From Roseithermus sacchariphilus (lineage in GTDB: Bacteria > Bacteroidota > Rhodothermia > Rhodothermales > MEBIC09517): 64,000 bases of DNA. Below the pieces are notes generated by a model, which was not told the DNA's origin, did not search any database, and saw nothing but the letters and a program-made list of their open reading frames with translations. Where the stretch lies: assembly GCA_003285105.1 (NCBI GenBank), contig CP030158.1, positions 682,001 to 746,000 of the forward strand. The letters are read 5' to 3'. The position numbers were made by a program, and so were the translations under genes. Below, piece by piece: positions 5,905 to 35,047 of this stretch; positions within the stretch are counted from its first letter, which is position 1, and each line of letters begins with the position of its first letter.

Positions 5905-8900
5905 TTACTTGACGAGCAACATCTTCTTCGTCTGCACGAAATGCCCGGCTTCGATGCGGTAGAAGTAGACGCCCGAGGCCAGGTCGCGGGCATCGAAGGG
6001 CACGTGATACGAGCCGGCCGCCTGGTCCCGGTCGACGAGCGTAGCGACGCGCTGGCCGAGCAGGTTGTAGACGGCCAGCTTCACCCGGGCCGCCTGCGGC
6101 AGCGCGTAGGTGATGGTCGTGGTCGGGTTGAACGGGTTCGGGTAGTTGTCCCCCAGGGCGAACTCCTGCGGCACCTCGTCGGGGCCCTCGGTGTCCGTGC
6201 CGCGGATGAGCGTGAGCGAAAACTTGTATTCCCCGCGGGCCGGGTCGCGCCAGCGGCTCTCGTCCTGGTTCCGCGGCTCGGAAGCGGCGTCCTGGCCGAT
6301 GACGAGGAAGTAGTACGTGCCGGCTTCCTCGACCTCCCACTCGATCTTCGAGTGCCAGTCGAAGCCGCCGTCGTCGTTCTCGTCGAGGAGCTGACGGCTC
6401 GGGCCGTAGAGGTACATGTACATGTCCATGTCCCGCGGCCACAGCTCCCCGTCGAAGGGATGCGTCTCGCCGATGATGACGTCGCCGGGCTGGGCCGTGA
6501 TGCGGTAGTAATCCCGGTCGTCATGGTAGCCGGGGACCGAGGGATCGTAGAGCATGTAGTCGTACAGCACGCCGTCGCCCGGATGGTCGCCGCGCGCGTC
6601 GGCCTCGTCGAACGAGTCGTTGGGCTCGAAGGCCGTGCGGATCTCGTCGATGGCGTTGCGCTTCATGAGCACCTGGTACGTGCCGTCTCCCAGTTCGGCC
6701 GGGGCGTTGAGCGTCAGGTAGTAGGTCGTCGCCTCGTCGACGAGCAGGTTCAGCTTGATGTTGCCGCCCGTGTTGCGGGTGCGCCATCCGCCCGACTCGC
6801 TGTCGGTGACGTTGGTGCCGGCGGCATCGGTGAGCCGGGCACCGTTGTCGAACGGGCTACCGCTCATGCCCTCGTTGGTGAAGGTGCGGACGTGGTAGAT
6901 GTACCCCGGCTCCAGGTCGATCCGGTAGACGTCCACGTCGGCCGCATCGGTAAACGAGGCCTGGAGTATCCCCGCGGGGGCCAGCGGCGTCGCGTCGGCG
7001 ATGGCGTTGTTCGGCTCCACCTCGCCGAAGGCATAGGTGATGCGGAACTTGTACTCGGCGGTGGTCGGGTCGCGGTCGGTGCCGCTGCCGAAGTCCTGCG
7101 AGCGGATGGCGCAGAAGTAGGCGCCCGGCGTCGTCACCGTGTACTCGATCTTCGAGTGCCAGTCGTCGAACGGCGAGCCATCCTCCAGCATCACGGTGTT
7201 GTCGTCGTTGGTGGCCAGTTCATTGCCTTCGCTGTCGTAGAGCAGCATGTACATGTCGGTGTCCCGCCCCCAGAAGGCCCCGTCGTATGGGATCGTCTCA
7301 CAGACGAGCGTCCCGCCCGCCTCCGGCACATCGACGCGGTAGTAGTCGATGTCGTCGGCGAAGTCCGGGTTGGCCGCATTGAAGAGCATGGCTTCGTGGA
7401 CGACGCCGTTGGGCGTGATCGCCGGCGCGTCGCCCGTCGTGTCGTTGGGCTCGAAGGCATCTTTGAGCATCGTGTAGTCGTTGCTCTTGATGTGGATCTC
7501 ATAGTCGCCCGGCGCGGTACCGGCCACACTCACGAGATAGGCTCCGTCCTGCTCGGCGATGATCTGGAGCTTGAAGTTGCCGCTGCCGTAGCGGCCGTGC
7601 CAGTCGGACCCGTCGTGGAGCGACGTGCCCGGATCGGCGGCGTCGAACAGGTCCACCGTCATCGTGCTGCCGGTGTTGTTGGCCGAGCGGATGTGGTAGA
7701 TCCGGCCGGCTTCGACGGGCACGCGGTAGTAGTCCACGTCGGAGGCCGAAGTCGAGGCGGCGATGAAGCCTTCGAGCAGCACGGTGGCGGTGGCCGGGGT
7801 GTCGTTGGGCTCGACCTCCCGGACGGGGTCGCCCACGTTGAGCGAGTAGAGGCCGACGTGGTTGTTGCCCAGGTCATCCGTGGCCGAGGTGGCCGCCCGG
7901 ATCTGGATGATGTAGACCCCGTCGCTGGCCAGCGTGTAGTTGAGCCGCGAGAAGGCATCGCCGGCAGGCGTGCCGGTGGCGAGCACGTTCAGGCCGGCGT
8001 CGAGCAGCCGCACCTCGGCGGGAAAGTCCACGTTCGCCAGGTCGAAGGCGGCGGACTGGAGCTTCAGCGTCACCTGTTGCCCGGCCACGCCGTTGAACAG
8101 ATAGTGGTCCACGTCCCCCGCGGGGAAGATCATCCCGTTCTGCCGGGGCGACCCGACGCCGACGGGGATCTTGTCCCGCTGGAGGGCATCGGCCGGCGTG
8201 TCGTCGGGCTCGTTCTTGATGCGGTTCGGGTAGATCTCCGCGTCGAAGACGGCGAGCTGGTAGGCGCCGGCACCGGGGGCGGTCAGCTTGATCAGGTAGG
8301 CGCCGGAGGCCTCGGGGATGAAGCCGCCGACGCGGAAGTTGCCGTTGCCCAGCGCCCCGGCCACGTTCTGCCCGGCGAGCAGGTTGCCCGAAAGCGACGT
8401 GGTGCCGTCGCCGTTGTCCGTCTCGTGGTACAGTTCGATGCCGATGTCCCCGCCGGTGACCGTCGAGGCGAGCGAGAGGATGCTGTACATCCGCTGCTCG
8501 TGCATGAAGAGCCGGAACATATCCACCTCCCCGGCCCCGGTGAACGAGCCGGAGATGGTCGTATCCGAGCGAGCGGTGATCGGCATGGCCGTCTCCGGCG
8601 TATCGTTGGGCTCGGCGTTGGCCTCGATCAGGTCGTTCGTGTACTCGGTCACATAGATGTCGTACATGAACCGGCCGGGATCGCGGTTATCGACGTTGCG
8701 TCGGCAATCCGGGTAGGTATCGTCGGGGTCGTCGGTACAGGTCCGCGTCGAGGAGGCCCAGCCGGAGACCCACAGCCACAGCGGCGAATCGGTGGTGATG
8801 CCCTCGGCGGCGAGCGCCTCCGGGGTCAGGACGATGCGCGAGTGGATGTTGTTGGGGCCGTCCATGCTCTCGCGCGCGCCGTCGTCGTCCTCGGCCAGGA

Positions 8901-33128: not shown

Positions 33129-33159
33129 AAAAACGCCGCCCTCGAGGAAGGCGGCGTTT
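33129..33159 (-). terminator. Intrinsic terminator after tRNA-Lys
   Basis: On the minus strand AAACGCCGCC pairs perfectly with GGCGGCGTTT (10 bp stem, 9-nt loop) and runs into TTTTT. It lies 20 bp downstream of the 3' end of tRNA-Lys and fits Rho-independent termination of that transcript. Confidence 0.8.
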
Positions 33160-33178
33160 GCGCGTGGTTTTCAGGAAG

Positions 33179-33251
33179 TGATCCCGCCAGGATTCGAACC
33201 TGGGACCCACTGATTAAAAGTCAGTTGCTCTGCCAGCTGAGCTACGGGATC
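33179..33251 (-). tRNA. tRNA-Lys (anticodon UUU)
   Basis: The 73-nt sequence folds as a full cloverleaf. The acceptor GATCCCG pairs with CGGGATC, with discriminator A. The D arm is GCTC/GAGC with AGCTGGCA. The anticodon stem ACTGA/TCAGT carries loop CTTTTAA, so the anticodon is TTT (Lys). The T arm CCAGG-TTCGAAT-CCTGG is canonical. CCA is not encoded. A promoter-like element (33279-33309) and a terminator (33129-33159) flank it, so it appears to be transcribed alone. Confidence 0.96.
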
Positions 33252-33399: not shown

Positions 33400-33433
33400 A
33401 AAAAAAGGCCGCTCCCGTTCAGGGAGCGGCCTT
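33400..33433 (-). terminator. Intrinsic terminator of the 21-codon mini-gene
   Basis: On the minus strand AAGGCCGCTCCC pairs perfectly with GGGAGCGGCCTT (12-bp stem, 5-nt loop) and is followed by seven Ts. It lies 33 bp after the stop codon of the mini-gene at 33466-33531 and would end its transcript before tRNA-Lys. Confidence 0.85.
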
Positions 33434-33465
33434 GCAGCTTTGCACGAGCGTGCAAAACCTGGAGC

Positions 33466-33531
33466 CTAGTAGCGACGGAACAGTTTGCCGCCCTTGACGC
33501 TCTTGAGCTGCTTGGTGGACAGCTTCTTCAT
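33466..33531 (-). CDS. 21-aa basic mini-protein with a double-glycine-like motif
   Basis: The frame encodes 21 residues: MKKLSTKQLKSVKGG followed by KLFRRY and a TAG stop. An SD-like AGAGGT lies 6 nt before the ATG, and a strong terminator lies 33 bp after the stop, so it behaves as a complete transcription unit. Eight of 21 residues are Lys or Arg. The LKSVKGG pattern resembles the end of double-glycine leader peptides of bacteriocin or signalling precursors. Only six residues would remain after such cleavage, and no peptidase-transporter gene is nearby. It could instead be a nucleic-acid-binding or regulatory micro-peptide. The family is unknown. Confidence 0.6.
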   Translation of the reverse strand: MKKLSTKQLKSVKGGKLFRRY

Positions 33532-33871
33532 AACGCTACCTCTGGGTTGGTGGTGAAACAGGAATGAGGTACTCGTAGCAGCAGGGCGGACCACAAAGCG
33601 GTGGAAACGACCCGATCTGCCGCTATCATGAAAAAAATTTCATATTCCCCTGTCATGCGCCTTCCCCTCAAACTGATATCAGCCATCTGGCGCACATGGA
33701 TGACTGTCCATGCGCCAGAGGCGCATAGCACGGGCTTCTCCTCCACCCGGACGCTGCCCACGCGAACGAAGCGCTCACCGCGTCGTTAGAGGGCGGCGCT
33801 GCGGGGTGCGCCGCCGTCCCGGCGCCCGCTCCGCGCGGCGTCGTCCCTCCCCCAACCGTCTCGCGTGTCGC
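33532..33871. other. Intergenic region upstream of mini-gene and RoxA-like gene, 340 bp
   Basis: This is a divergent gap. It includes an A/T-rich island near 33620-33650 (TGAAAAAAATTTCA palindrome-like element). A hairpin lies at 33687-33718 in which CTGGCGCACATGGA faces TCCATGCGCCAG with a 2-nt bulge and 6-nt loop. I find no convincing TAnnTTTG promoter box on either strand. No protein-like frame is present. Confidence 0.5.
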
Positions 33872-35047
33872 ATGTCCGTCCTCCCCTCCTCGCCCCTGGG
33901 CACCCTCACCGTCGAGCAGTTCCTGGCGGAATACTGGCAGAAGAAGCCGCTGTTGATCCGTGGCGCCCTGCCGGGCTTCACCTCACCGCTCTCCCCGCAG
34001 GACCTGGCCGGGCTGGCCTGTGAGGAGGAAGTCATCAGCCGCCTCGTCCTGGAGCGCGGGGGCGACTACCCCTGGCAGCTCCACTACGGCCCCTTCACGC
34101 CGGAGGACTTCGAGGCCCTGCCGGAGACGCACTGGTCGTTGCTGGTGCAGGAGGTCGACCGCTACGTCCCCGAGGTGGCGGCGCTGCTGGAGCACTTCCG
34201 CTTCGTGCCGAACTGGCGCATCGACGACGTGATGATCAGCTTCGCCCCGAAGCACGGCGGCGTGGGGCCGCACGTGGACAACTACGACGTCTTCCTGCTC
34301 CAGGGCCTCGGCCACCGACGCTGGCAGATCCACCACACGCCCGTCGAGGAGGAACACCTGGTGCCGGACCTGGACGTGCGCATCCTGGCCGACTTCGAGC
34401 CGGACGCGGAATGGGTGCTGGCCCCCGGCGACCTGCTGTATCTGCCGCCGCGCATCCCGCACAACGGAATCGCCGAGGACGACTGCATGACCTACTCCAT
34501 CGGCTTCCGCGCGCCCAGCACGGTGGAGCTGCTGGAGGGCTTCCTCAGCCACGTGATCGAACACACCGACCCCGGCCGGCGCTATGCCGACCCGGACCTC
34601 CGCCCCCCCGCCGAGCCCGGAGCCATCTCTCCTGAAGCCCTCGCCCGTATCCGCTCCATGATCACCGAGATCTTCCAGGACGAGCAGGCCATCGACCGCT
34701 GGTTCGGGCGGTTCATGACGGAGCCCAAACGGGGCTTCCAGCCCGGCCCTGACGACGTGTGGGACCCGGCCGAACTGGCCGATGCACTCCGCGAGGGCGC
34801 GACCCTGCACCGGTATGCCATTGCCCAGCTGGCCTTCATCCGCCATGCCGACGGCTCTGCCAGCCTCTTTGCCGGCGGCGCCGAGCACCGGCTGCCCGCG
34901 GACCTCGCCTTCGCGGCACCGCTGATCACCGGCACGGAACCGCTCGACGCCCGCACCCTGGCGCCGCACCTGGACCACGAAGCCCTGCTGGATCTGCTCG
35001 CCACCCTCGTCAACGACGGCGCTCTGCTGGTCTCGCATCCGGCCTGA
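33872..35047 (+). CDS. roxA-like: RoxA/YcfD-like JmjC cupin oxygenase
   Basis: The product is 391 aa from ATG 33872. The N-terminal JmjC/cupin domain (LTVEQFLAEYWQKKPLLIRG) includes the Fe(II) ligands H134-x-D136 in GPHVDNYDVFLLQG, and the distal His is probably in LPPRIPHNGIAE. GHRRWQI and APGDLLYLPP are typical of the YcfD/RoxA group. In E. coli this 2-oxoglutarate oxygenase hydroxylates an arginine of ribosomal protein L16. The C-terminal dimerisation and winged-helix part is also present. Assignment to L16 hydroxylation is by family; no ribosomal genes are nearby. Confidence 0.83.
   Translation: MSVLPSSPLGTLTVEQFLAEYWQKKPLLIRGALPGFTSPLSPQDLAGLACEEEVISRLVLERGGDYPWQLHYGPFTPEDFEALPETHWSLLVQEVDRYVPEVAALLEHFRFVPNWRIDDVMISFAPKHGGVGPHVDNYDVFLLQGLGHRRWQIHHTPVEEEHLVPDLDVRILADFEPDAEWVLAPGDLLYLPPRIPHNGIAEDDCMTYSIGFRAPSTVELLEGFLSHVIEHTDPGRRYADPDLRPPAEPGAISPEALARIRSMITEIFQDEQAIDRWFGRFMTEPKRGFQPGPDDVWDPAELADALREGATLHRYAIAQLAFIRHADGSASLFAGGAEHRLPADLAFAAPLITGTEPLDARTLAPHLDHEALLDLLATLVNDGALLVSHPA

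Follow-up and report, generated by a model that had tools for sequence, protein, structure and literature searches.

Several secretion systems in which a C39-ABC exporter (PCAT) handles small peptides with a double-glycine (GG) leader can be compared with a 21-codon mini-gene located in the window, i.e. the whole 64-kb stretch of DNA analysed here. Peptide signalling is, to our knowledge, well charted in Gram-positive bacteria and hardly at all in Bacteroidota. CSP has 17 residues, and we know of no GG signal as short as the six-residue cargo of the mini-gene.

The pneumococcal systems ComAB-CSP, BlpAB and RtgAB (PMC7018657, PMC7595303) share with the mini-gene system a C39-ABC exporter and a leader with hydrophobic residues at positions -15, -12, -7 and -4 followed by GG, and part of their cargo acts as signals, for which histidine kinases encoded nearby are the receptors. 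They differ from it in that the mini-gene stands in a Gram-negative setting with an HlyD adaptor, has a cargo of six residues and is unlinked to the exporter gene in the source genome. The bacteroidetocins and the Bacteroidales GG-motif RiPPs (PMC6671954, PMC10352776) have in common with it a Bacteroidota GG leader, a PCAT exporter and the TIGR01847 model, but their cargo is larger and either kills or is enzymatically modified, whereas no modification enzyme was recognised beside the mini-gene. As for EbfG1-4 and PteB of Synechococcus (PMC4997328), they likewise combine a Gram-negative PCAT with small GG proteins, and their non-bacteriocin role (biofilm) shows that GG cargo need not kill; the EbfG1-4 cargo is nevertheless of 6-7 kDa, unlike a hexapeptide. 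Finally, Nostoc HetC (PMC10986499) is a PCAT acting in development, for which the authors ask whether PatS- or HetN-derived peptides could be cargo; no GG peptide is known near hetC, and its comparison with the mini-gene system is one of description, not of sequence. No PCAT cargo of about six residues was found described in the open-licence literature, and the mini-gene is unusual relative to known PCAT substrates in the very small size of its cargo.

Organisation of the mini-gene

The whole cassette lies on the minus strand, where AGAGGT, ATG, 21 codons, TAG and a terminator follow each other. The sequence-only reading had described a 21-codon gene with a Shine-Dalgarno sequence and a 12-bp terminator with T7, and these are present exactly as it put them. 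The features are as follows:

33538..33543, minus strand: Shine-Dalgarno sequence AGAGGT, six bases before the ATG (read from the sequence)
33466..33531, minus strand: mini-gene of 21 codons plus TAG, MKKLSTKQLKSVKGGKLFRRY, with the ATG at 33531-33529 and the TAG at 33468-33466 (sequence, homologues and synonymous-biased divergence of the homologues)
33487..33531, minus strand: double-glycine leader MKKLSTKQLKSVKGG, with M-15, L-12, L-7, V-4 and GG (TIGR01847, NF047798 and the recognition positions of PMC7018657)
33469..33486, minus strand: predicted exported cargo KLFRRY (deduced from the GG cut site)
33436..33459 (approximate limits), minus strand: second hairpin, downstream of the stop codon and ahead of the terminator (transcript folding)
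33400..33433, minus strand: intrinsic terminator with a 12-bp stem and T7 (sequence and folding)

The terminator stem (9 GC of 12 bp) encloses a 5-nt loop at 33433-33405 and is followed by seven T at 33406-33400, and the fold of the mini-gene transcript is more stable than its own shuffles (z = -3.0). Although below the reach of standard gene finders, this 21-codon gene appears genuine. Downstream of its terminator, a tRNA-Lys(TTT), the only match of an Rfam search of the window, is found on the same strand at 33178-33251, with a terminator-like stem after it at 33131-33159.

The neighbouring gene at 33872-35047 is JmjC_2/ROXA-like and divergent from the mini-gene, and no kinase adjoins this copy. 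Together with the basic charge of the peptide, this neighbour would fit an action inside the cell, whether through RNA binding by a micro-protein or through regulation of the RoxA-like gene, both of which had been put forward from the sequence. However, nothing points to RNA binding, the conserved residues are explained by the leader grammar described below, and the idea of a RoxA regulator was dropped because no homologue was found near a JmjC gene. Intracellular action is scarcely credible on these grounds.

Leader match and chance expectation

On the 15 leader residues, TIGR01847 gave 18.5 bits (curated cut-off 15.7) and NF047798 gave 23.6 bits (curated cut-off 23.5), while in a TIGR01847 search of the whole genome the mini-gene was the sole match, with a weak E-value of 0.14. 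GG leaders bind the C39 domain through positions -4, -7, -12 and -15 (PMC7018657), which are occupied here by V, L, L and M, respectively, all four hydrophobic.

ORFs containing some GG are common in this 69% GC sequence, with 15 in the window vs. 38 per shuffled window. For the full leader grammar followed by a core of up to 15 aa, a pattern written after the case was seen, the window gave one match, and 60 dinucleotide-preserving shuffles (ca. 3.8 Mb) gave none. Concerning other peptide classes, the rSAM-modified RiPP model TIGR04149 gave only 12.9 bits vs. a cut-off of 25, and class II bacteriocins, usually characterised by bactericidal activity or by a cargo of some tens of residues, differ from the mini-gene product, whose cargo has six.

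The exporter of the source genome

A single C39 domain exceeds the Pfam cut-off in the genome. It makes up the first ca. 145 aa of a PCAT of 734 aa (P0001, C1:1564017-1566218) with the domain order C39, ABC-membrane and ATPase. In an alignment read by eye, the Cys, His and Asp motifs of this PCAT appear to be intact, and an HlyD-family adaptor gene (P0002) comes after it. An IS605-type TnpB gene (Cas12f1-like TNB domain) is found on the opposite strand between the two (L037:6836-8017; C1, ca. 1.563 Mb), where it splits a PCAT-HlyD pair that is adjacent in relatives. The mini-gene and the PCAT are 850 kb apart; the linkage of peptide gene and PCAT, absent in the source genome, is present in its nearest relative (G005), Fulvivirga, Reichenbachiella and Cyclobacteriaceae.

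Relatives within the order

Among the 114 genomes of the order that were searched, 21-residue mini-genes were found elsewhere in G005 only, as two intact copies, MKKLSRKEMKRVVGGGILVKV and MKKLNRKEMKGVIGGGVLVKI, and a third, degenerate one. The PCAT search of the order gave 69% identity in G005 and 32% or less for the other full-length matches, so that independent searches for exporter and mini-gene singled out the same two genomes (chance probability 1.6e-4). One of the G005 mini-genes is located 0.7 kb from the G005 PCAT-HlyD pair.

Between the intact copies, 8 of ca. 14 synonymous and 5 of ca. 49 non-synonymous sites are different (p = 6e-4), a bias which extends over the core and is as expected for a translated, selected frame. 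The frame-conservation check proposed by the sequence-only reading, with a random synonymous pattern as the sign of a spurious frame, was thus run on homologues and yielded a bias. As far as sequence can tell, the mini-gene is a real, selected gene.

Upstream of the G005 copies, ca. 110 bp are common to them (z = 7-17). The upstream region of the window mini-gene does not align with these, and for this reason no promoter is claimed. This same lack of upstream conservation would favour a chance, untranslated ORF, a reading made very improbable by the profile matches, the same-length homologues, the phyletic pairing with the exporter and the synonymous bias among homologues. As to the cores, KLFRRY is unlike GILVKV and GVLVKI of G005.

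The degenerate G005 copy (C587; L061, about 7420-7490) has an ATA start, GS for GG and no Leu at -12; it still adjoins an intact sensor kinase, and its upstream region is conserved.

A DNA-level search of 60 relatives gave, apart from the window itself, weak short matches only. Among the order-level candidates, a 55% match in G056 (L002) is apparently part of an unrelated coding sequence, read in its own frame, and most other weak matches sit in other frames or genes. Some of the class-level matches, in another family of the class, are ordinary GG peptides whose Cys-rich cores have ca. 40-65 residues; many peptides of this kind occur at L093, L094, L098, L102, L114 and L115, likewise in another family of the class.

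The exporter clade beyond the order

PCAT orthologues, 43-55% identical, were found in Sulfidibacter, Reichenbachiella, Fulvivirga and several Bacteroidota MAGs. They form one clade (support 100/99) without the other PCATs of the order, in a tree for which the program issued a long-branch warning. Wherever the genes of a locus were listed, the PCAT is followed by an HlyD-type gene, the Pfam check covering P0002 and the G005 gene only.

In Fulvivirga, Reichenbachiella and one Cyclobacteriaceae genome, the PCAT is flanked by mini-genes of 22-26 codons, often in tandem, with cores of 7-11 residues. Three were found in Fulvivirga sediminis (cores PELRIDRRP, PEMKIRERD and PEIRVGPGS), two in Reichenbachiella faecimaris (PEMWIEGGG and PEIIVGGGE, with a clear terminator after one of them), and five in tandem within ca. 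430 bp, with a terminator at the end, in a Cyclobacteriaceae MAG (WPKAWKV, DHKNWPFAPVR, CWPKEWKI, KDLQDWWR, the latter after AG, and RKRPGRA). The PCAT locus of a Chitinophagales MAG holds one 20-codon ORF with the core PIELVEF. Two Cyclobacteriaceae leaders encode identical peptides, with nine synonymous and no non-synonymous differences. Also, a 190-aa protein adjoining a PCAT (L121:8981-9553) has a GG-type leader and then a weak match to an intein/Hint-like splicing domain.

These recurrent loci bear on whether the mini-gene is a relic, i.e. a gene for a longer GG peptide cut back to the leader part, which would still be transcribed, but functionless. The clearly degenerate C587 copy would fit such a fate, but several genera have cores of 6-11 aa next to the same exporter, the synonymous bias in G005 includes the core, and the ribosome-binding site and terminator are intact in the window copy; we consider a relic improbable.

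In family f37 (G277, G404, G431, G492 and G542-G545), the PCAT clade is present in six of the eight genomes and no recognisable short-core GG peptide was found. The pairing of PCAT and mini-gene is therefore frequent and not universal, or the f37 substrates look different. Loci of other PCAT lineages (L169-L174) showed no short-core mini-gene of the same type.

Sensor kinases near the mini-genes

The C68 mini-gene of G005 is arranged divergently with a Reg_prop/Y_Y_Y histidine kinase gene at a distance of 250 bp, and another Reg_prop/Y_Y_Y kinase has the degenerate C587 copy ca. 340 bp upstream of it. Thus, Y_Y_Y kinases adjoin two of the three G005 copies, one of these two being degenerate, for which a post hoc test gave a chance of ca. 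1e-5 (12 Y_Y_Y matches in the 4.4 Mb of G005). The two kinases are mutually the closest in the set (48%), as if peptide and kinase had perhaps been duplicated together. At other PCAT loci, a Y_Y_Y kinase was found in Reichenbachiella, a TPR-histidine kinase in Fulvivirga and a LytTR protein in Chitinophagales.

It is because of these kinases that a signal is preferred over an effector, and this is the weakest link of the argument. The PCAT-exported cargo could instead be an extracellular effector, such as an antimicrobial or a protease inhibitor: bacteriocins gave the leader models their names, and the tandem, diversified cores of one Cyclobacteriaceae genome could suit an arms race. Against this, 6-11 residues are small for a pore-former, and neither an immunity nor a modification gene was recognised next to the mini-genes examined. 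An effector role is a possibility to be kept in mind, albeit an unlikely one, and the signalling function is a hypothesis that we regard as reasonably probable.

Proposed mechanism

A 21-aa precursor would be encoded by the mini-gene as a stand-alone cistron, equipped with a ribosome-binding site and a terminator of its own. In the single PCAT of the genome, the C39 peptidase domain would recognise the 15-aa leader and cut after Gly-Gly, and KLFRRY would then pass to the outside through the PCAT, the HlyD adaptor encoded near it and an outer-membrane TolC-type channel. Once exported, the hexapeptide (6-11-mers in relatives) would most likely serve as a signal outside the cell, with a periplasmic sensor kinase as its probable receptor.

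The double-glycine leader and secreted hexapeptide proposed from the sequence alone held up, as a prediction, against the profile matches, the PCAT recognition positions, the phyletic pairing, the synteny in relatives and the synonymous-biased divergence. Gene anatomy, leader match, conservation and pairing with one PCAT clade are direct observations, and leader cleavage and export by the PCAT are what we infer, with good support. The predicted product shows those features of a PCAT substrate that can be tested by sequence and would work like a PCAT/GG-peptide system; that it is such a substrate is very likely. The account as a whole, that of a PCAT-HlyD-exported ultrashort peptide most likely acting as a signal, seems to us rather probable.

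Implications

The mini-gene suggests that C39 exporters may handle cargo of six residues. More tentatively, and with appreciable doubt, it may belong to a Bacteroidota-wide (perhaps also Acidobacteriota) form of peptide signalling, in which one PCAT-HlyD clade would export peptides of 6-11 residues from unannotated mini-genes, with periplasmic sensor kinases of the beta-propeller (Reg_prop/Y_Y_Y) type, or related ones, as the receptors. The mini-gene peptides are candidate ligands for the Reg_prop/Y_Y_Y kinases, and ORFs of 20-30 codons with MKKL...GG leaders can be searched for around this PCAT clade. An exporter clade with such tiny, predictable cargo would offer a concrete route to the signal peptides of Bacteroidota.
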